Below are positions 605-23,788 of a DNA stretch of 24,110 nucleotides, piece after piece. Origin of the DNA: a virus. The position numbers and the translations under genes were made by a program. The stretch's first letter is position 1. The number at the start of each line of letters is the position of its first letter. The stretch lies in the IMG/VR virus record IMGVR_UViG_3300036715_001109, positions 1-24,110 of that record. One strand, 5' to 3'. A model generated the notes under the pieces. The model saw nothing but the letters and a program-made list of their open reading frames with translations. It did no database searches and was not told the DNA's origin.

Positions 605-1567
605 TCAACGTGAGAAGTAACTAGCCAGGAACTTCTCTTTAGTCGTCCAGCCTTCCTTGACGAACTGGCGCATGAGTTCCAGGTCTTCCTTAGGGAGGTC
701 GCGTTCGGTCTTGCCTGCCGCACCTACGCCAGTTTTACCTCCACCAGCCTGCGCGCCACTGCCAGTAGTGCTTGCAGAGGTTGCATTGGCGAGGTTGCTG
801 GTGTTGGCTTCTGTTCGGAAGTGACGTGGAAAGTCCCTGCGCATCAGTTCCCCAACCTTGTCCAGGAAAGCACGACCACGAGCAGCTTCACCAGACTTGA
901 TAAGGTTCTCACCGAGGTTGAGGGCGTACTGACGTAGCTTGGGGTCATCGTTGAACCAAGCATTTCCGTCTTCGACCCATTCCATCAGTACAGGGTCAGT
1001 TTTAGCCACGGCTGCGGCTTGTTCACTGGTTAGTACTGCTGGTGCAGGCTCCTCAATCGGTGCCTTGAGCTCCTTCTGTTGGGCCTTGAGCAGGTCTATT
1101 CGGTCTTCCAGCGCTACAACAGTGTCGTGTTCACCGTAGCTTTGGGCTTCCGACCGCTGTACACGCAGGGCAGCTATCGCAGCCTTGAGTTCTTCATCCT
1201 TACGGGCAATGGTTTCTTCATGGAATTTCTTGAAAGCAGCCTTAGTGCCTTCAAACTCTGCCATTTTCTTCCGCAAAGCCTCTACTTCATTTTCCAGGTT
1301 CTTCGCAAAGCGTTCACCACGTTCGATGAAGGTCTTTGCATCCACCCACTTCTTCGGGTCGCCCTTGAAATGTGCCCTATCTGTCCAGCCTTGGCGAGTT
1401 GCCTGCGCCTCAGCAGCGGCATCGGAGTCATCTGCGCCATCCGATTGGGCTTCCCTAGCGTCAGGGCCTTCCCCTGTATCAACCTCTGCTGCGGCTGCAT
1501 CAATTTCCATCAATTCTGCTTCTATATCAGCGGCAGTACGCTGTGGTTGTTGCAATGGCTCAGTCAT
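605..1567 (-). CDS. Scaffold-like head assembly protein
   Basis: This 320-residue protein has the usual build of a phage scaffolding protein. It has an acidic Ala/Asp/Glu-rich N-terminus (residues 10-60), a GWTDRAHFKGDPKKWVDAKT segment near 60-80, and a long predicted coiled coil with heptad-like Leu/Ala/Lys/Glu (about 88-170). A low-complexity Gly/Ala/Thr/Ser linker follows (255-290), then a short charged C-terminal helical region (ERDLPKEDLELMRQFVKEGW) that could contact the coat protein. Such proteins template procapsid assembly and leave the mature virion. The start has AAAGGA upstream. A 40-bp palindrome lies in the gap ahead of it, so it may have its own control. Assignment rests on composition and gene order, not on a diagnostic motif. 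Confidence 0.75.
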   Translation of the reverse strand: MTEPLQQPQRTAADIEAELMEIDAAAAEVDTGEGPDAREAQSDGADDSDAAAEAQATRQGWTDRAHFKGDPKKWVDAKTFIERGERFAKNLENEVEALRKKMAEFEGTKAAFKKFHEETIARKDEELKAAIAALRVQRSEAQSYGEHDTVVALEDRIDLLKAQQKELKAPIEEPAPAVLTSEQAAAVAKTDPVLMEWVEDGNAWFNDDPKLRQYALNLGENLIKSGEAARGRAFLDKVGELMRRDFPRHFRTEANTSNLANATSASTTGSGAQAGGGKTGVGAAGKTERDLPKEDLELMRQFVKEGWTTKEKFLASYFSR

Positions 1568-1583
1568 AATAAATCCTTTCTAG

Positions 1584-1623
1584 TTTCTCGTGTGTATTAC
1601 ATTGTTGTAATACGCCCTAATAA
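1584..1623. repeat. 40-bp palindromic element, copy 1
   Basis: Imperfect palindrome with core ATTACA-TTGT-TGTAAT (1596-1611) and a right arm ending CGCCCTAATAA. The left arm is the most divergent of the eight copies (TTTCTCG instead of TTATTNG). It fills the gap between the end of the GroES-like gene and the scaffold-like gene, within the minus-strand block. Confidence 0.85.
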
Positions 1624-2004
1624 TCAAACATTTTCCACAGTCGTAATAATATCAGTATCATTCACGAAGCGATACTCCCGACCATCCAAGTGGCTCGTGT
1701 GGAACTTCCCAGTATACTGCCCAACAAGCACTGTGTCGCCGACTTCCGCATAGTCAGTGCTCTTGTCGAACCAGCAATCATGACCGATTTCAACCACAGT
1801 TGCAGTGACAGACAGATTACGCTCTGCTTCCGCTGTTTTGCGCTGGATGATGATACCGCTTTCAGTTTGCTCTTCCACCTGCTGACCCACCAGCAACACA
1901 CGATGGCCAGTAGCGCGAAAGCCACTTTTGTTGCCCTCGTTGTAGCCCTTTGTCGCACGCCAGCCACGGGCTCCTTTTGCTACTGTTTCTTCTAAGTCCT
2001 TCAT
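1624..2004 (-). CDS. GroES-like co-chaperonin
   Basis: The 126-residue product matches the GroES/Hsp10 pattern from residue 33. It opens with HRVLLVG, like the HDRVIVK strand of GroES. A mobile-loop segment follows with Glu-Ser-Gly and a hydrophobic triplet III (51-53), equivalent to the Ile-Val-Leu tripeptide that docks GroES onto GroEL. Then come TATVVEIGHD, VGDTVLVGQYTG, a YRFVNDTDI strand and a terminal IITTVE, each in GroES order. About 30 extra, Lys/Gly-rich residues precede the fold. The stop of the upstream gene overlaps its ATG as ATGA, with GGGGAAA as ribosome site. T4 Gp31 shows that phages can replace host GroES for capsid folding. Location beside scaffold and capsid genes supports that role here, but GroEL partnership is inferred. 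Confidence 0.85.
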   Translation of the reverse strand: MKDLEETVAKGARGWRATKGYNEGNKSGFRATGHRVLLVGQQVEEQTESGIIIQRKTAEAERNLSVTATVVEIGHDCWFDKSTDYAEVGDTVLVGQYTGKFHTSHLDGREYRFVNDTDIITTVENV

Positions 2005-6958: not shown

Positions 6959-7049
6959 TAGGGCAGGGTGTGAGGGTGTGGTAGGGACTATGTGGAGTGT
7001 GCAGTTATTCTCGCGGGTAAAGCAATTTCGGAAAAAAAATTAAAAATAA

Positions 7050-7089
7050 TTATTCGCGCGGATTACAGCATTGTAATACACCCCAATAA
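7050..7089. repeat. 40-bp palindromic element, copy 2
   Basis: Left arm TTATTCGCGCG, core ATTACA-GCAT-TGTAAT (7062-7077), right arm ending CCCCAATAA. It lies in the divergent region, about 150 bases upstream of the first packaging gene. Confidence 0.9.
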
Positions 7090-7212
7090 CTAATTACCAG
7101 AGGACAGCAATAGCTAGTATGGGGAGTAATGGAGCAACTGGAGAGCACCAGTGCGGAAAATTTGCAAAAAATCTGATGGTGCATTACACTCATTTGAGAA
7201 GTTTCGCGATTT

Positions 7213-7937: not shown

Positions 7938-8195
7938 ATGGTAGGATTTATACACTACATCGACGGACAGCCAATGCCAACGCTATCCTATTACCTGAAC
8001 GGCGAAAGGGTCAGTACTATTGAGGCTAAAGAGTATTTTATAAATATGTATGCTCATAATAGTTTGATGGGATATTGTGATGCGGATTCTGTTGATGAAT
8101 ACTGGGAGGGGCGGTATAATGAAACAGGGCGGGAGGTAATTTGTAATCTAACCCATGGGGTGCTAGAAATACGGGCATACTATCACCCTGAGTAA
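7938..8195 (+). CDS. Hypothetical early protein, 85 aa
   Basis: First gene after the strong early promoter. The 85-residue product is acidic and aromatic-rich (nine Tyr, one Trp), with segments HYIDGQPMPTLSYYLNGERV, EAKEYFINMYAHNS and DEYWEGRYNETGR. It has no membrane segment or recognised motif. The ATG follows the shared leader GAGGCTCTCAA, in which GAGG is the ribosome site. Small first-transcribed phage genes often act on the host, but no function can be assigned here. Confidence 0.8.
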   Translation: MVGFIHYIDGQPMPTLSYYLNGERVSTIEAKEYFINMYAHNSLMGYCDADSVDEYWEGRYNETGREVICNLTHGVLEIRAYYHPE

Positions 8196-8243
8196 CATTC
8201 CCCAAATACGCCTAACCTAACTTGGGCGTATTTGGGGAATGTT
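8194..8243 (+). repeat. Intercistronic hairpin, 19-bp perfect stem (cassette copy 1)
   Basis: AACATTCCCCAAATACGCC (8194-8212) pairs perfectly with 8225-8243 around a 12-base loop. The stem begins within the stop codon of the preceding gene. No T-run follows, so it is not a typical intrinsic terminator; a processing or stabilising RNA structure is likelier. TTCCC, then TAAAAGAGGCTCTCAAA and ATG follow, as in copy 2 at 8594. Confidence 0.85.
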
Positions 8244-8668: not shown

Positions 8669-9199
8669 ATGCAAAATTCAACCAAACGTACACCAGCTGT
8701 CACCACGACCGTTAACGGTAGCTTGCTAATAGTAACATTCGCAGACGGGGAAACGGCGGCAATTGATACCAATTTACTAGCCGATGATATTCGCGTTACC
8801 GCCATGTATCATGGTCTTAATGCAAAACTCGTTGACGCAGCCGCCATTGGGCGGGATAGCGTGACGGGAAAATCGGCTAGCCTGTCCGAGAAAAAAGCCG
8901 CCGTCTTGGAGATAGTGGAACGGTTGACGGGCGAAAATCCTTCATGGAACAAAATCAGAGAAGGGGGCGGTAATGGCGGTGTTAACAACGGTCTATTACT
9001 TCGTGCGATTATGGAGGTTAGCGGCAAATCATACGAGGAAACTCGCACGTTCCTGCTTAATCTGTCTGCTGAGCAGAAGGCGGCAATTCGTGCCCGTGAA
9101 CGTGTGGCGAATGTTATCGCACGGATGCAACGGGAAAAACTTGCGGCTGTTGATGTATCCGATGAGTTTGATGACTTCCTAGGCGGTGATGACGAATAA
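8669..9199 (+). CDS. Hypothetical phage protein, paralogue of the 10537 gene
   Basis: A 176-residue soluble protein. It is homologous to the 211-residue product at 10537: LLLRAIMEVSGKSYEETRTF here against ILARAMVEVSGKTLDEVKKF, then ANVIARMQREK against APVIARLEAAK. The N-terminal half also aligns (TFADGET against DFVNGES). The C-terminus is acidic with DEFDDFLGGDDE, a tail type that also ends the 10537 and 14777 products (LLxGFM). The ATG follows GAGGCTCTCAAA. An intrinsic terminator follows 27 bases after the stop. The family is familiar among phage hypothetical proteins; its function is not known to me. Confidence 0.85.
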   Translation: MQNSTKRTPAVTTTVNGSLLIVTFADGETAAIDTNLLADDIRVTAMYHGLNAKLVDAAAIGRDSVTGKSASLSEKKAAVLEIVERLTGENPSWNKIREGGGNGGVNNGLLLRAIMEVSGKSYEETRTFLLNLSAEQKAAIRARERVANVIARMQREKLAAVDVSDEFDDFLGGDDE

Positions 9200-9251: not shown

Positions 9252-9300
9252 GCGTCCGTAGTATCCTCATACTGTCCACAGCCGCCCTGTCATCCTGATA

Positions 9301-9340
9301 TTATGGGGGCGTATTACAATGGCGTAACATGCGCGAATAA
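9301..9340. repeat. 40-bp palindromic element, copy 3
   Basis: Left arm TTATGGGGGCG, core TTACA-N5-GTAA, right arm ATGCGCGAATAA. It lies 50 bases beyond the terminator. TATTAT (9299-9304) overlaps its left edge as in copy 6, but no good -35 precedes it. Confidence 0.9.
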
Positions 9341-9590
9341 CGACCCCGTAGGATGCGCTACAATGCCCTAAAATTCCTAGGCAATACTAACCTATCGCCC
9401 CCATCCGATAACCTCACCATGCCCCGTAGGATGCAAATTAGCCCTATATGCCCATAAAATCACCCCATTAAAACCCCCATAGTTACCACAATCACCCACT
9501 ATCGCACCCGCGCCACTCATGGTAAACTCACCCCAACACAGCCAAACACGCCCACGCACACCTGCCCACGCGCCTGCTAATCCCCCTGCA

Positions 9591-9718
9591 CGTTGCAGGT
9601 GTTTGGTTTTGATTTTCTGGGCGCACGTTGCAGGTTTCTGGTTTTGAAAAGTACGGCGGAAGTTGCAGGTTTCTGGTTTTGAAATTGGGGCGCACTCTGC
9701 AGGTGTTTGATTCTAAAA
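9591..9718. repeat. Four iteron-like direct repeats, 34-35 bp period
   Basis: Repeat units begin at 9591, 9626, 9661 and 9695, giving spacings of 35, 35 and 34. Each carries TGCAGGT followed by KTYTGRTTYTRA; units 2 and 3 share GTTGCAGGTTTCTGGTTTTG exactly. The first unit also forms a palindrome CCTGCA-CGT-TGCAGG (9585-9599). The period is close to 3.3 helical turns, so copies present slightly rotated faces. Such arrays are typical of replication-initiator or partition-protein binding sites. Confidence 0.85.
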
Positions 9719-9869: not shown

Positions 9870-10292
9870 ATGACCTATCCGACTGAGCTTTCCAAATATC
9901 CAGTGGAGTTCGAGCAGATTGTTCTTCGTGCACACGCCCTTCGTGAGCCGTTGCTGTTGCGCTTCCCAGATGTAAAACACACCCGCCGCTTCCGCAGTCG
10001 CTTCTACGCGTACCTGCGGCTGGTGCGGGCTGCTGACCTCAACAATACACTGGCGCTGGCTGCAGCTTCAGTGACCCTCGCGCTGGCGGATGACCACCTG
10101 TCCTGCACAATTGGGGTGGCAGATGTGATGCAGGGGCTTAGCGTGGAAGTCCAGGTGTTGCGTGGGGTGCTAGGGGCAGGGGTTGCTGGTGCTGCAGTGG
10201 CTGCTGGGGATGCTGTCGTCCCTGCACAGGAGGCTTTGCGTGCGAAGTTGGCTGAGATTCGCAGAAGGAAAGTAGTGGATGCAGCAGGTTAG
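9870..10292 (+). CDS. Hypothetical protein downstream of the iterons, 140 aa
   Basis: A 140-residue helical protein. The N-terminal half is basic and aromatic (LRFPDVKHTRRFRSRFYAYL, residues about 34-53), compatible with nucleic-acid contact. The middle and C-terminal parts are Ala/Val/Leu-rich (VLGAGVAGAAVAAGDAV), then a short basic helix EALRAKLAEIRRRK. The ATG follows AAAGGAA. Its G-rich sense strand and codon use differ from the A/T-richer 10537 gene. Position directly after the iterons suggests it could be a site-binding protein, but no known initiator motif is visible. Confidence 0.75.
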   Translation: MTYPTELSKYPVEFEQIVLRAHALREPLLLRFPDVKHTRRFRSRFYAYLRLVRAADLNNTLALAAASVTLALADDHLSCTIGVADVMQGLSVEVQVLRGVLGAGVAGAAVAAGDAVVPAQEALRAKLAEIRRRKVVDAAG

Positions 10293-10295
10293 GGG

Positions 10296-10335
10296 TTATT
10301 GGGGTGTATTACAATGGCGTAATCCACGCGAATAA
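10296..10335. repeat. 40-bp palindromic element, copy 4
   Basis: Left arm TTATTGGGGTG, core ATTAC-N6-GTAAT, right arm CCACGCGAATAA. It starts three bases after the stop codon of the 9870 gene and lies upstream of the 10537 gene. Confidence 0.9.
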
Positions 10336-10385
10336 CCCTCAGCTACCTCTTTCTGTATTTCTGGTAAAATAATTGCAAATAACAC

Positions 10386-10536: not shown

Positions 10537-11172
10537 ATGAATACAGACGTAGCAGAAGTAGCAGCAAAAAAAACAGTTAAGCCAACCACATACGTTACAG
10601 TCACAATGGATGACGGTCGTGTTGTTGACTTCCCAGGCAACCAGCGCATGAAGAAAGAAGTCATCATCGACGGTAACACTGTTAAGGTTCGCATGGACTT
10701 CGTAAATGGTGAAAGCCGCATCTTTACCGTGGGTGATAAGTTGCTGTTGAAGTTTGCAGGTCACGGCGCATCACAGAAGTTAGGTGATGAATTATCAGGC
10801 TTGACCGATGTCGAAGACTGCGTTATGGCAATTGACGAGCTGATGGACAGATTAAACGCTGGCGAATGGGGTGTTACCCGCGTCAAGGGTGAGTCAATGG
10901 CTGGTTCAAGCATCCTGGCTCGCGCTATGGTTGAAGTATCTGGCAAAACCTTGGATGAAGTTAAGAAATTCTTGGCTGACAAGAACCAGAAGCAAAAAAT
11001 GGCATTGCGTAACCTGCCAACAATCGCGCCAGTTATTGCGCGTTTGGAAGCTGCCAAAACTAAAAAGCCACGCGATACAGCTGAAGCTGACCAGTTGCTG
11101 GATGGTTTCATGGGTTACGCAGTTGCCAAAGACCTTGCAATCCCAGACCCGATGGCAGACATTGCAGAGTAA
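10537..11172 (+). CDS. Conserved phage hypothetical protein, paralogue of the 8669 gene
   Basis: A 211-residue soluble protein. The N-terminal 55 residues are Lys/Val-rich. The core has MDFVNGESRIFTVGDKLLL (53-71) and KFAGHGASQKLGDELSGL (72-89), then a helical region with EVSGKTLDEVKKFLADKNQK and PVIARLEAAKTKKP. The tail motif ADQLLDGFM (184-192) recurs in shortened form in the 14777 product. The gene has its own leader (AAGGAGCCTCAA before the ATG) and its own terminator, so it is probably a separately controlled, strongly expressed transcript. The family is one I associate with phages of Pseudomonadota; the function is unknown. Confidence 0.88.
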   Translation: MNTDVAEVAAKKTVKPTTYVTVTMDDGRVVDFPGNQRMKKEVIIDGNTVKVRMDFVNGESRIFTVGDKLLLKFAGHGASQKLGDELSGLTDVEDCVMAIDELMDRLNAGEWGVTRVKGESMAGSSILARAMVEVSGKTLDEVKKFLADKNQKQKMALRNLPTIAPVIARLEAAKTKKPRDTAEADQLLDGFMGYAVAKDLAIPDPMADIAE

Positions 11173-11262: not shown

Positions 11263-11276
11263 GTGGGCTGGAGGAA

Positions 11277-11316
11277 TAACTAGGGCGGATTACAGTATTG
11301 TAATACACACGAATAA
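11277..11316. repeat. 40-bp palindromic element, copy 5
   Basis: Core ATTACA-GTAT-TGTAAT, left arm TAACTAGGGCG, right arm CACACGAATAA. It sits between the terminator and the next promoter. Confidence 0.9.
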
Positions 11317-11331
11317 TAAATTATAACTGTG

Positions 11332-12519: not shown

Positions 12520-12711
12520 ATGGCAAGGCCTAAGAAGTTAATCAGAACAGTTTACAAAAACATTGCAATCCCTGAAGACCTTGCAGCTAAAATGGAGCTG
12601 GAGCTGTACAGCGAAGTGGAAGGCAAAATCCCTTTTGGAGCGCAGCAAGAGTTTTTCACAGGTCTATTGCGTGAGTATTTCAATAAACAAGCTGGAGGTG
12701 TACAGTCATGA
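12520..12711 (+). CDS. Small protein, possibly ribbon-helix-helix, 63 aa
   Basis: A 63-residue protein beginning MARPKKLIRTVYKNIAIPED, then LAAKMELELYSEVEGKIPFG and a final helix TGLLREYFNKQ. A basic tail, one beta strand ending in IPEDL and two helices fit the ribbon-helix-helix outline of small DNA-binding regulators. It resembles a widespread small phage protein type. AAGGAG precedes the ATG and the stop overlaps the next start (ATGA). DNA binding is an inference from shape only. Confidence 0.8.
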   Translation: MARPKKLIRTVYKNIAIPEDLAAKMELELYSEVEGKIPFGAQQEFFTGLLREYFNKQAGGVQS

Positions 12712-14685: not shown

Positions 14686-14714
14686 TTGCACTCTGGAGGG
14701 GAATTACCTATTAT
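14686..14714 (+). promoter_or_regulatory. Candidate promoter overlapping palindrome copy 6
   Basis: TTGCAC (14686-14691), exactly 17 bases, and TATTAT (14709-14714, five of six). The -10 shares its last four bases with the left arm of the 40-bp palindrome, so a protein on the palindrome would cover the promoter start region. Confidence 0.5.
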
Positions 14715-14750
14715 TAGGGTGTGTTACAAAATCGTAATGCGCCCTAATAA
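14711..14750. repeat. 40-bp palindromic element, copy 6
   Basis: Left arm TTATTAGGGTG, core TTACA-N5-GTAA, right arm GCGCCCTAATAA. It lies 27 bases before the start of the 14777 gene. Confidence 0.92.
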
Positions 14751-14776
14751 CGCAAAACAAACTGAAAGGAAATAAA

Positions 14777-14986
14777 ATGAGCGAAGTAGTGCAAGGAAGT
14801 ATCCAAATCTGGCGTCAGAAGTCCCTGGATGGCACAATCACACTGGACGAGATGCGGCAAGCCATCGCCGCAATCCGTAAGGAACGAGTCCAGGCATCAG
14901 AGAAATCCGCTGTATCCAGAGCCGCAAAAGCAAAAGCCACACCGATTGACGGTGACGCGCTGTTGCAAGGGTTTATGGAAATGTAA
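14777..14986 (+). CDS. Small helical protein with C-terminal LLQGFM motif, 69 aa
   Basis: A 69-residue charged helical protein. The middle (TITLDEMRQAIAAIRKERVQ) is amphipathic, the linker is Lys/Ala-rich, and the end is DGDALLQGFMEM. That end matches the tail ADQLLDGFM of the 10537 product, suggesting a shared short interaction peptide. AAAGGAAA precedes the ATG. The start of this type (IWRQKSLDGTITLDEM) is familiar among small phage proteins of unknown role. Confidence 0.78.
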   Translation: MSEVVQGSIQIWRQKSLDGTITLDEMRQAIAAIRKERVQASEKSAVSRAAKAKATPIDGDALLQGFMEM

Positions 14987-19174: not shown

Positions 19175-20548
19175 ATGCAAATCGTAGATTCCAAGAAACT
19201 AATTATAACAAAAGACAGACAGCGGAAGGAATTCTCCCCTGAAGCCATTGGGGAACTGTCTGAAACAATTCGCAGCAAAGGCCTCATGCACGCTGTTGTA
19301 GTACGGGAAACTCCTGAAGGCCTAGTCCTCGTTGCAGGTGAGCGCAGGTTAAAAGCGATTGAAGATATGGAAATGCTGGGCGGTAAGCTCCGCTACAACG
19401 GTCAAGACATCCCTTCTGGCTTTGTCCCTTATGTCACCCTAGGGCAACTCACACCACTGCAAGCTGAGGAAGCCGAACTCGACGAAAACTTGCACAGAAA
19501 GGATTTAACTTGGCAGGAAAGTGCGGCGGCTATGGCAAAGCTCCACCGTATCCGTTCACAGCAAGCTCAGGAAGAAGGTCGCATCCACACGGTAGCTGAT
19601 ACTGCAATGGAAATCAAAGGGCGTAGTGATGGTTCATACCAGGACTCTGTCCGCAAAGACTTGATTGTAGCAAAGCACTTGGACAACCCTGAAGTAGCGA
19701 AAGCGAAATCCGCGGAAGAGGCCTTCAAAATCCTCAAGCGCCAAGAAATAACTCAAAAGAACATCGAACACGCTGCCACTGTAGGTAAGACATTTTCCTC
19801 CTTCCTGCACCAAGTTCACAACGTCGACTGCTTGGAATGGATGGCAACTTGCCAAGCTGAGCAATTCGATGTAATCCTCACAGACCCGCCCTATGGCATG
19901 GGTGCTGACACTTTCGGTGATGGGGGTGATGGCAGACTTGCTAACAACGAACACCACTACAAGGATGACTACGAACACTTCCATGCCCTTATGACTAAGT
20001 GGACTGCACTATCCTATCGTGTGGCAAAGTCAGAAGCCCATGCCTATGTTTTCTGTGACTTGGACAACTTCCACGAACTCAAAGCTATGATGCAAGCAGC
20101 TGGCTGGTACGTTTTCCGCACTCCGTTTGTCTGCACTAAACCAAACTCTGGCCGCGTACCACTCCCCTTCGAAGGTCCTCGTCGCCAGTACGAACTCATC
20201 CTGTACGCAATCAAAGGTCACAAGAAAATCACAGCCATCTACCCAGATGTCATAACTACATTCCAAGATGCAGGCCTCCAACATGGCGCGCAGAAGCCAG
20301 TTGCGCTGTATGAAAACCTGCTTACGCGTAGCGTTCGTGCTGGTGACAGCGTGCTTGATTCCTTCGGCGGCAGTGGAACTCTCCTCCCTGCCGCGCATAA
20401 CTTAAAGTGCAAAGCCACTGTGCTTGAAAAGTCCCCTGAATACTACGGGATTTGCCTCAAGCGTCTAAATGCCCTGACAGATGGCTCACCAGCACTTGAC
20501 GGTGAAGCTCTTGGCAATGAGTTGAAAAACTTACTAGGAGGACTCTAA
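19175..20548 (+). CDS. ParB-domain / DNA methyltransferase fusion
   Basis: A 457-residue fusion. Residues 1-110 are a ParB/Srx-like domain: SPEAIGELSETIRSKGLMHA, then AGERRLKAIE (GERR at 55-58) and ENLHRKDLTWQE. Residues 111-205 are helical, like the ParB middle domain. Residues 212-440 are a methyltransferase with catalytic DPPYGMG (237-243), GAQKP (371-375) and the cofactor loop FGGSGT (397-402). DPPY ahead of the SAM-binding motif is the beta-class order, giving N6-adenine or N4-cytosine methylation. The start has AAGGAAG upstream. The stop overlaps the polymerase start (TAATG). Phages use such enzymes against host restriction; no cognate restriction gene is present. Confidence 0.9.
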   Translation: MQIVDSKKLIITKDRQRKEFSPEAIGELSETIRSKGLMHAVVVRETPEGLVLVAGERRLKAIEDMEMLGGKLRYNGQDIPSGFVPYVTLGQLTPLQAEEAELDENLHRKDLTWQESAAAMAKLHRIRSQQAQEEGRIHTVADTAMEIKGRSDGSYQDSVRKDLIVAKHLDNPEVAKAKSAEEAFKILKRQEITQKNIEHAATVGKTFSSFLHQVHNVDCLEWMATCQAEQFDVILTDPPYGMGADTFGDGGDGRLANNEHHYKDDYEHFHALMTKWTALSYRVAKSEAHAYVFCDLDNFHELKAMMQAAGWYVFRTPFVCTKPNSGRVPLPFEGPRRQYELILYAIKGHKKITAIYPDVITTFQDAGLQHGAQKPVALYENLLTRSVRAGDSVLDSFGGSGTLLPAAHNLKCKATVLEKSPEYYGICLKRLNALTDGSPALDGEALGNELKNLLGGL

Positions 20549-22944
20549 TGCCAATAATGCCAGTCGGCCCAACTAACGCCAAGATTGCGCTTGTGGGCGA
20601 GTTCCCGCATGAACAAGACCTTCTCCGAGGTCAGCCTTTCTGTGGTGGCCCAGGTATGGAACTTGGCCGTATCCTTAATGAATCAGGACTCTCCCGTGAA
20701 GAGTGCTTCATCACAATGGTCTGCAATGACCGCGTACCACGTAGTCGAATCGAAGGCGTCATCGCCATGAAGAAGAAAGACATCGGCACTGCGCACGTCT
20801 TGTACAATGGGAAGTGGGTATTGCCTCAAGTCGTGGAGGGCATCGAACGCTTGAAGCAAGAACTAGAACTGCTCAAACCCAATGTCGTCTGCACTTTTGG
20901 CAATCTCGCTCTCTGGGCACTCACAGGGCAATGGGGTGCGGGGAGCTGGAGAAGCTCCGTCATGGAGTCAACACTAATCCCTGGGTTGAAAGTAATCCCT
21001 ACAGTTAGCCCTGCGTTGCTGCTATCTCAGTGGTCACTGCGTCCATTGCTGGTGCATGACTTGAAGAGAGTGAAAAGGGAAAGCAGGTTTGCAGGAGTTA
21101 TTCGCCCGAATTACAACTTTGTAATACGCCCGAATTACGACACCGCCCTTACCCAACTAAACGGGCTAATCCAGCTTGCAGATTCCGCAGCCGCAACAGG
21201 GGTGAAACTCAAGCTCGGGGCTGACATTGAAACACGCGCAGGTCACATTGCTTGTATCGCTTTCGCATGGACTCCCCACGATGCTATCTGCATACCTTTG
21301 ATGTCCAGCACCAACCCAGAAGGTTATTGGAGTGCAGAAGAAGAATCCCAACTCGTCTTCCTGATGTGCAAGTTAATGTCCCTTGTTACAATCATTGGGC
21401 AAAACTGGAACTACGATGCTCAGTACATCTACCGCCACTGGCACTTCCTCTGCCCTGACGTACAAGACACAATGATTCAACAGCACTCTTGCTTCTCCAA
21501 CCTTCCAAAGAACCTGGCCTTCCTCTCCAGCATGTATTTGGAAGACCACCTCTACTGGAAAGACGACCGCACGAATTGGACTGAAGGGCCAAAGGGTGAA
21601 GGTGAAGATGTGTTCTGGAAGTACAACTGCACAGATTCCATGCGTACACTTGGCATCCACGCTGTCCTTGAACAAGTCGTCATCGGAATGGGGATGCAGG
21701 AAGTCAACCGCTTCCAGCAATCCCTAGCACCTGTCGTGCTGCAAACAATGATTCGAGGCATCCGTGTTGACCTTTCACAACGGGAAAGCTTCTCACAGGC
21801 ACTTCAACAAGCCGAAGCCGAGCGCAAGCAATGGATGCTGGATGTCCTTGGTCATGAGGTCAACATCAAGTCCCCTAAGCAGATGCAAGAACTCTTCTAC
21901 CAAGAACTCAACCAGACGGAAGTCAAACATCGTAACGCAGAAGGGGGCATGTCCGTCACAACAAATGACGAAGCCCTGCATCGCATTGCTCAGCGTGAAC
22001 CTATCCTTGACCCGCTGTGTAAGAAAATCTCTGAACTCCGAAGCATTGGTGTTTTCCACTCCACCTTCATCCAAGCACCCCTTGACATCGACGGGCGCAT
22101 ACGAACATCCTTCAACATCTGCGGAACTGAAACCTACCGCTTCGCCAGTAGCAAAAACGCATTCGGCACTGGCCTCAACATGCAGAACATCCCCAAGGGG
22201 GGCGATACTGAAAATGGTGGCCTGACCCTTCCCAATGTCCGTAACATCTTCATCCCTGACCAAGGCCACACGATGTTCGACATTGACCTGGACAGTGCAG
22301 ACTTACGCATTGTGACTTGGGAAAGTGATTGCAAATGGATGAAAGACCACTTCGCCAATGGCCGCAAGCCCTACATTGAAGTCATGCGGGAATACTACCA
22401 CAACCCCAATATGACTAAGCACTCCCACCCACGCGAGTACGGTATGTTCAAATCCCTGTGTCATGGCACGAACTACCTCGGAACAGCAGATGGTATTGCC
22501 CCCCGCATTGGTCTGCTTGTCCACGAAACCGAACGCATCCAGAAATGGTACTTCGGCTTAGCCCCAGAGATAAAGGCCTGGCAAGAAGATATCAAAAAGC
22601 AAGTATCTGGCCGCCGCTACGTTGAAAATGTCTTTGGCTATCGTAACTACTTCTTCGACAAAATCGAAGGTACAATCTTCAACCAAGCTGTCGCATGGAT
22701 TCCGCAGAGCAGTGTGGCTTGCCTAATCAACCGTGGGTATGTCAACATTGCGAATAACCTACCTGAAGTTGAAGTCCTTCTTCAGGTGCATGATTCCTTG
22801 GCTGGCCAGTTCGACTCCCTCCACGGTGACTGGGCTTTGCGCCGCATTGCCGAGGAATGTGAGATTGCCCTGCCGTATGATGAGCCGTTAATTATCCCAG
22901 TTGGCGTGGTTAGTAGCAAGGTTAGCTGGGGTCAATGCGGGTGA
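20548..22944 (+). CDS. UDG-like domain fused to family A DNA polymerase
   Basis: A 798-residue replicative polymerase. Residues 10-170 are a uracil-DNA glycosylase-superfamily domain (LVGEFPHEQD at 15-24, GQPFCGGPG, FGNLALWAL at 117-125, TVSPALLL at 152-159). The usual His of the HP motif is Ser154, so activity is doubtful. Residues 222-370 are the 3'-5' exonuclease: D226/E228, N286/D290 and Y359xxxD363. The polymerase domain has motif A DIDLDSADLRI (578-588), motif B KSLCHGTNYLG (635-645) and motif C QVHDS (746-750). No 5'-3' exonuclease is present. Residues 184-197 are encoded by a 40-bp palindrome. Start overlaps the methyltransferase stop. Confidence 0.93.
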   Translation: MPIMPVGPTNAKIALVGEFPHEQDLLRGQPFCGGPGMELGRILNESGLSREECFITMVCNDRVPRSRIEGVIAMKKKDIGTAHVLYNGKWVLPQVVEGIERLKQELELLKPNVVCTFGNLALWALTGQWGAGSWRSSVMESTLIPGLKVIPTVSPALLLSQWSLRPLLVHDLKRVKRESRFAGVIRPNYNFVIRPNYDTALTQLNGLIQLADSAAATGVKLKLGADIETRAGHIACIAFAWTPHDAICIPLMSSTNPEGYWSAEEESQLVFLMCKLMSLVTIIGQNWNYDAQYIYRHWHFLCPDVQDTMIQQHSCFSNLPKNLAFLSSMYLEDHLYWKDDRTNWTEGPKGEGEDVFWKYNCTDSMRTLGIHAVLEQVVIGMGMQEVNRFQQSLAPVVLQTMIRGIRVDLSQRESFSQALQQAEAERKQWMLDVLGHEVNIKSPKQMQELFYQELNQTEVKHRNAEGGMSVTTNDEALHRIAQREPILDPLCKKISELRSIGVFHSTFIQAPLDIDGRIRTSFNICGTETYRFASSKNAFGTGLNMQNIPKGGDTENGGLTLPNVRNIFIPDQGHTMFDIDLDSADLRIVTWESDCKWMKDHFANGRKPYIEVMREYYHNPNMTKHSHPREYGMFKSLCHGTNYLGTADGIAPRIGLLVHETERIQKWYFGLAPEIKAWQEDIKKQVSGRRYVENVFGYRNYFFDKIEGTIFNQAVAWIPQSSVACLINRGYVNIANNLPEVEVLLQVHDSLAGQFDSLHGDWALRRIAEECEIALPYDEPLIIPVGVVSSKVSWGQCG
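21098..21137. repeat. 40-bp palindromic element, copy 7, inside the polymerase gene
   Basis: Left arm TTATTCGCCCG, core ATTACAA-CT-TTGTAAT, right arm CGCCCGAATTA. It is read in frame as VIRPNYN-FVIRPNY between the UDG-like and exonuclease domains, producing a near-exact repeat of VIRPNY. Same length and centre as the intergenic copies. Confidence 0.92.
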
Positions 22945-23100: not shown

Positions 23101-23129
23101 TTGCTAACTGTGGTATGTTAGGGCATTAT
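23101..23129 (+). promoter_or_regulatory. Candidate promoter overlapping palindrome copy 8
   Basis: TTGCTA (23101-23106), exactly 17 bases, and CATTAT (23124-23129), each four of six. As at copy 6, the last four bases of the -10 lie within the left arm of the palindrome. Confidence 0.45.
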
Positions 23130-23165
23130 TAGGGCGTGTTACAATTTTGTAACACGCGTGAATAA
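23126..23165. repeat. 40-bp palindromic element, copy 8
   Basis: The most symmetrical copy: core GTTACAA-TT-TTGTAAC, arms TTATTAGGGCG and CGCGTGAATAA. It ends 17 bases before the next start codon, so any promoter for that gene must overlap it or lie upstream. Confidence 0.93.
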
Positions 23166-23182
23166 CTTTTAAGAGGCTTAAA

Positions 23183-23788
23183 ATGGATAATGAATTTAAC
23201 TTAGAACGGACTATCGCTGGCGAACCAATTGAAACAGAAGCTGGAACACCAGTTGAGTTTGTTGCTTACCGACCTACTGCAAAGGCGGGTAAACAACTAA
23301 TTGTGCAGGCTGGGAATGATATATTTACATACTATAAAAACGGAAGCTACCACGATACTGTTATGGGTTGTGCCTATGACCTTCGCATGAAGTCAGTAGT
23401 GAAGCAAATAGACTGGGCTAAGCTACCCATCGATACACGCATCACCCTTGGTCTCCGCACAGGGGAAAGTGACCGCTATTTCAGTTCGTTTAGCTATGGT
23501 ATGGTGAATTTTTATAGAGACGGTACAAACTCGAAGACCGCACAGCGTAACTCATCCATGCTGAGTATTAACCCAAGTAATGTGCAGATAGCACCAGACA
23601 ATCCGTGGGCGGTATTACTAGGCGGCAATTGTCCTATCCCTGATGGGCTTGAGTTTGAGTACATGACGTCCAATGACCCAGGACGGATAATAACATCTAC
23701 AAAAAGCGCAAGCGAGTATATATGGACTAATTATTCTGTTTACGCATACCGACTAACTGGAAAGGTATTGGACGGGTGGGAGCTATGA
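23183..23788 (+). CDS. Hypothetical protein, 201 aa
   Basis: A 201-residue, beta-rich soluble protein. Its start (FNLERTIAGEPIETEAGTPV, then EFVAYRPTAKAGKQLIVQAG) resembles a module found in phage hypothetical proteins of the type FxLExAxAGExVxTxxG. The remainder holds many Tyr, Asn and Ser (YYKNGSYHDTVMGCAYDLRM; SDRYFSSFSYGMVNFYRDGT). No catalytic motif is visible. The leader GAGGCTTAAA before the ATG belongs to the shared leader family, and palindrome copy 8 lies immediately upstream. The stop overlaps the next start (ATGA). Confidence 0.83.
   Translation: MDNEFNLERTIAGEPIETEAGTPVEFVAYRPTAKAGKQLIVQAGNDIFTYYKNGSYHDTVMGCAYDLRMKSVVKQIDWAKLPIDTRITLGLRTGESDRYFSSFSYGMVNFYRDGTNSKTAQRNSSMLSINPSNVQIAPDNPWAVLLGGNCPIPDGLEFEYMTSNDPGRIITSTKSASEYIWTNYSVYAYRLTGKVLDGWEL

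Follow-up and report, generated by a model that had tools for sequence, protein, structure and literature searches.

A palindrome within a phage DNA polymerase gene is a member of a dispersed, lineage-specific set and probably a double-stranded DNA recognition site rather than an insertion

We conclude that the palindrome lying in frame within the family A DNA polymerase gene of an uncultured phage truly belongs to a set of such sites found across the genome, and that it was created and kept by substitution. Comparison of sequences across the phage family indicates that it is probably a recognition site read as double-stranded DNA and that it was not inserted into the gene.

Results

Palindrome copies in the window

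A 42-bp imperfect palindrome occurs eight times in the window, a virus record of 24,110 bp (IMGVR_UViG_3300036715_001109); seven copies are intergenic and one is in the polymerase gene (Table 1). The polymerase copy has the length and centre of the intergenic copies, as the preliminary description had claimed, and this holds for all seven. Scored on a matrix built from those seven, which themselves score 49.7-56.6, it reaches 47.3, against a top score of 7.0 in dinucleotide-preserving shuffles of the window (n = 60), and the best window position outside the palindrome family scores below 0.

Table 1. Palindrome copies and other features of the window.
Feature	Position	Strand	Description
Copy 1	1583..1624		Intergenic, between the stop of gene 1624-2004 (-) and the start of gene 605-1567 (-)
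Copy 2	7049..7090		Divergent region upstream of small-terminase-like genes
Inverted repeat	8194..8243		22 nt, near-perfect, 6-nt loop
Copy 3	9300..9341		Intergenic, after gene 8669-9199
Tandem repeat	9585..9718		~30-nt unit (GCACGTTGCAGGTTTCTGGTTTTGAAA-like) in four copies, 34-35 nt spacing, non-coding gap
Copy 4	10295..10336		Intergenic, 2 bp past gene 9870-10292
Copy 5	11276..11317		Intergenic, after gene 10537-11172
63-aa protein	12520..12711	+	Weak candidate for the reader; encoded by all of the checked genomes that carry the element
Promoter-like repeat	14667, 18406, 23082		ACAGTTAT...TTGCA
Copy 6	14710..14751		Intergenic, 26 bp ahead of gene 14777-14986
ParB_N-methyltransferase	19175..20548		Fusion of a ParB N-terminal domain with an N6/N4 DNA methyltransferase; adjoins the polymerase gene
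Polymerase gene	20548..22944	+	798-aa family A DNA polymerase; UDG-like domain at the N-terminus
UDG-like domain	20548..21040		Uracil-DNA-glycosylase-like domain, fused N-terminally to the family A polymerase
Copy 7	21097..21138		In frame inside the polymerase gene, codons 184-197, peptide VIRPNYNFVIRPNY
Copy 8	23125..23166		Intergenic, after the polymerase gene, 16 bp ahead of ORF 23183-23788

Other repeats and genes of the window were also recorded. The promoter-like repeat lies 44 bp upstream of the palindrome at two of its three occurrences, within the window only at copies 6 and 8, with the left end of the palindrome at the expected -10 place. Palindromes similar to the 22-nt inverted repeat occur in the relatives G001 (35484) and G002 (627), apparently as a second conserved palindrome type. 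Among genes 8669-9199, 10537-11172, and 14777-14986, we noted a paralogous pair per genome (OG5) and a similar C-terminal L-L-x-G-F-M motif in small proteins that are otherwise unlike.

The polymerase copy is not an insertion

The UDG domain of the polymerase (PF03167, Pfam) spans residues 5-164 (E 2e-17). Around the copy, the AlphaFold model of the protein (mean pLDDT 88) predicts two helices, at residues 162-178 and 197-215, with a beta strand between them at 190-192; the second helix leads to the exonuclease sheet at 222. In this model, the copy covers the last part of the linker and extends into the exonuclease domain's first strand, so that its earlier placement exactly at a domain linker is approximate.

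We aligned the window polymerase with 50 homologues from IMG/VR and found residues 184-197 present without a gap in 50 of 50, with five extra residues and none missing at the site in L025, L027, L029, L031, L032, L036, L042, and L053. Most homologues retain RxxYxF(x)(I/V)RPx(Y/F) at the protein level, and the DNA palindrome is absent from them. The copy first described at 21098-21137 is real and in frame (V184-Y197), but the claim that it was inserted fails. In-frame insertion of a mobile palindromic element, either a MITE or one of the Rickettsia type, would account for dispersed copies of equal length with one in a gene; it is refuted by the lack of a gap in homologues and by the peptide being kept without the palindrome, an insertion of 13-14 residues being evident against none of the 50 homologues, and we consider it next to impossible.

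A family-wide set with lineage-specific spellings

In an uncultured phage family, a 42-bp four-box palindrome recurs 5-16 times per genome: most of the long relatives (~38-48 kb) contain 11-16 copies, with shuffle maxima near zero, and partial loci contain 5-6. In most lineages, the framework comprises four AT-rich boxes, RTTAY-N8-RTTAC-N6-GTAAY-N8-RTAAY; a first core pattern with an N4 spacer returned few matches, and the N6 spacer proved correct. Bases 1-5 of the half-site match the bases 13 bp further in at 0.62, compared with 0.14-0.35 for other shifts.

The N8 parts, together with the inner boxes in some lineages, vary by lineage but are consistent across the copies within a genome and across the two arms. 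Spellings include GCGCGGATTAC in G004, TGCGCACATTAC in G017, ACACCCGCATTAT in G011, TAGTCCTCATTAC in G013, GGTAGGAATTAA in G015, GACCGCGATTAAT in L053, and CGCCGGGAGTAA in G012; L108 has an AT-rich version. MW202489 (W01) harbors a degenerate set of seven copies, and no such palindromes were found in the more distant relatives W02 and G018. In the window, G001, and G002, one arm of a copy is usually of the GGG type and the other of the CGCG type, and the coding strand is G-rich; this coding-strand asymmetry is confined to that lineage and absent in the others. Gene calls on the relatives were made by a simple script, the contigs may be incomplete, and the relatives are non-independent samples. 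A literature search of incomplete coverage returned no account of these palindromes.

Terminase relatives (53-66%) were also identified in five contigs, L107-L111, binned with bacterial MAGs (Acidobacteria, Saccharibacteria, and Pseudomonadota), and L108, the bearer of the AT-rich version, is one of these.

Genomic positions and spacing

The element lies ahead of the orthologue of window gene 605-1567 in all 12 sampled genomes holding that gene, and other borders are shared under different spellings, before another gene in 12 genomes and between two structural genes in 9-10. These orthologous borders across lineages favor vertical inheritance over the hopping that had been proposed for the element, and they tell against a mobile element, as does the single lineage spelling common to all copies of a genome. 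Among 171 mapped copies, 123 have co-directional genes on either side, 17 have divergent ones, and 15 convergent ones; the ends of contigs account for 9, and the remaining 7 fall in called genes. Six of these seven are the polymerase site, and intragenic copies thus occur only at the same polymerase codons, bar one doubtful gene start, which again does not fit a mobile element. The doubtful case, in G007, lies 88 bp from a called start and is improbable as a second intragenic copy; the G011 homologue starts after its own element, and the G007 start codon is probably misplaced.

Co-directional copies mostly fill the narrow space that separates a stop codon from the following gene's ribosome-binding site, and no common promoter motif was seen in the sequence upstream of the copies. 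Spacing is somewhat more even than random (combined P 0.003, uncorrected for relatedness among genomes that are not independent), and close pairs 50-540 bp apart exist. The gap between the outside copies measures 5.4-15.5 kb in lineages with the polymerase site versus 5.1-6.8 kb in those without (one-sided P 0.011, a post hoc test).

The polymerase site exceeds synonymous expectation

Protein-level constraint might suffice if the peptide repeat RPNY...VIRPNY yielded the palindrome by chance, and the peptide is indeed conserved in homologues without the palindrome. We scored the polymerase site on a per-lineage matrix built from intergenic copies only and compared it with 20,000-50,000 synonymously recoded versions of the same peptide. 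Eight sampled polymerases lie beyond synonymous expectation, with P of about 2e-5 or less in seven and 3e-4 in one. The window site scored 47.6 against 46.0 for the best of 20,000 recodings, and the site exceeded the best recoding in L004 (52.3 vs 52.2), L010 (40.6 vs 39.5), L019 (39.7 vs 38.0), L039 (38.0 vs 36.8), and L053 (41.3 vs 35.7); L038 scored 34.8 (P 2e-5) and MW202489 26.8 (P 3e-4). The families of L019 and MW202489 rest on few intergenic copies (2 and 6, respectively). In nine other lineages, the site is at recoding expectation (P 0.08-0.95), with no trace of the palindrome.

The coding site also carries the spelling of its own lineage. The L053 site scores 41 with its own family matrix and below 8 with the other 14, those of L019 and L039 also score highest with their own families, and the window and L004 sites reach their top scores with the window/G001 families; for L010, the G001 and own-family scores are equal within 0.5. 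L036 and L053 have the palindrome in their own, very different spelling with the RP residues lost (peptide LFTRDYKFLIAVNN in L053). In L019, V-T in place of the usual V-I gives the GTAAC form of one of the two known intergenic copies, which is suggestive only. Codon identity at conserved residues, compared between the window and L009 clades, has its whole-gene peak in intervals starting at residues 176-181, which overlap the site.

The recoding tests, the own-lineage spelling, and the L053 and L036 palindromes retained despite loss of RP all speak against protein-level constraint as the sole cause, which we judge very improbable. Since the coding site beats its recodings and follows the spelling of its own genome, it is a genuine member of the genome-wide set. 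The fallback offered in the preliminary description, namely that the gene may contain a regulator's binding site, holds to the extent that a trans-acting factor would read the DNA at a coding site that tracks the spelling of its genome. In a polymerase tree made before L038 was recognized as a carrier, the carriers do not form one clade, so the site, as judged from this tree, would be either ancestral with repeated losses or repeatedly gained.

What reads the sites

The copies of each genome change together, which indicates that one factor reads them all. Palindromic sites placed just ahead of the ribosome-binding site of the next gene would also suit an RNA element, that is, intergenic hairpins that are processed (RNase III sites, as in T7) or that regulate translation. 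However, the arms within one copy are no more alike than the arms of different copies (combined z = -3.9), and this lack of hairpin-type arm matching makes double-stranded DNA a likelier target than RNA. Copies also occur between convergent genes, and we regard an RNA element as unlikely.

We searched the phage gene content for a reader of double-stranded DNA. The 63-aa protein of Table 1 has a weak match in W02 (E 0.002) and is absent from G018; its AlphaFold model (mean pLDDT 82) has two helices after an extended N-terminus, and no Pfam, PDB sequence, or Foldseek match confirmed a ribbon-helix-helix (RHH) or other DNA-binding fold for it. The ParB_N-methyltransferase fusion is present in all 17 genomes compared and is also encoded by W02, a genome without these palindromes. 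When protein divergence was compared with site divergence across relatives, no gene stood out as the reader. That result would suit a DNA-binding protein of the host, with the lineage spellings reflecting different hosts. Spellings turn over at 60-75% polymerase identity, however, which is arguably more than usual for host regulators, and a host reader seems an improbable explanation.

Discussion

The reader would be a sequence-specific protein that binds double-stranded DNA and is probably encoded by the phage, and the four short boxes suggest a dimer of two-box readers or four subunits. Reader and sites may have drifted together in each lineage, so that every copy within a genome is spelled alike. 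A conserved, pre-existing stretch of the polymerase gene would have been tuned to match by mostly synonymous, sometimes amino acid-changing substitutions and would thereafter have been kept in step with the other copies.

The bound protein may serve as an operator and elongation roadblock at transcription-unit borders, in the manner of stoperators. Such a role is our best single guess for the function, tentatively held, with genome organization next, and a roadblock in the coding strand would, by way of speculation, attenuate the polymerase message. A transcriptional role is at odds with the 15 copies between convergent genes, where an ordinary operator controls no gene, and the even spacing, together with a polymerase site where the surrounding gap would be large, points to spacing rather than transcription.

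Genome organization would have the bound protein bridge or mark phage DNA for folding, segregation, or packaging, similar to MatP/matS or ParB/parS. It would accommodate copies in co-directional, divergent, convergent, and coding positions, as well as the more even spacing and the tendency of the polymerase site to fill large gaps, and a ParB_N-methyltransferase fusion is encoded beside the polymerase. However, the signal from spacing is weak and in part post hoc, some copies form close pairs, most are confined to the small space separating a stop codon from the ribosome-binding site that follows, and W02 encodes the ParB-methyltransferase without having the palindromes. We consider this role possible but doubtful. 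To a similarly doubtful degree, the sites may constitute a four-box addressing or genome-organizing system of a lytic family, with a reader of a new protein family, a specificity that changes by lineage, and selection rewriting polymerase codons and amino acids.

No PF00589 integrase was identified in 15 relatives, so a lysogeny repressor as in the stoperator phages is not indicated. No polymerase relative was found in bacterial genome contigs either, and a temperate repressor seems less likely on these two grounds; the terminase relatives occur only in MAG contigs, three of them of 30-45 kb.

The polymerase site offers a clean case of overlapping codes, with a DNA recognition site in an essential coding sequence repeatedly tracking the changing specificity of its reader, and the lineages without the site provide natural controls. 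Orthologous positions spelled differently in many lineages form a natural data set for specificity change in a multi-site DNA-binding system. The sites probably chart the regulation or architecture of a phage family on which we found nothing experimental.

Several known systems share features with the set. T7-type phage promoters are dispersed and change in concert within a lineage with one reader, a single-subunit RNA polymerase, and the sites described here are likewise dispersed and change in concert; unlike those non-palindromic promoters, they are palindromic. The single-subunit phage RNA polymerase (PF00940) was absent in 15 relatives and the window record and was found in the T7 control, and we rejected promoters of this type on that ground. 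MatP/matS and ParB/parS comprise dispersed palindromic DNA sites, some inside genes, with one reader protein; they are shorter than the 42-bp sites and belong to other organisms. Rickettsia palindromic elements also place a palindrome in frame inside a gene, but they are insertions absent from homologues, whereas none was inserted here.

The SPBRE of Bacillus phage SPbeta is a 15-bp motif found at about ten prophage promoters and bound by MrpR, a tyrosine-recombinase-like protein (PMC10516654). No reader of that kind was found here, but, as with the SPBRE, which is bound by one phage regulator, the element is repeated at several intergenic regions of the phage genome. Cluster A mycobacteriophages (L5, Bxb1) carry up to ~30 dispersed stoperators per genome, often in short intergenic spaces, with a lineage-specific consensus that drifts with the phage (PMC6550527, PMC9283540). 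Stoperators are asymmetric 13-bp sites bound by a monomer and oriented with transcription in temperate phages (PMC6550527, PMC9283540), whereas the sites described here are 42-bp four-box palindromes without a general orientation, and no integrase was found. In common with stoperators, they are multiple and dispersed with a genome-specific consensus, and a variant of the dispersed phage operator/stoperator networks is the best label for the set.
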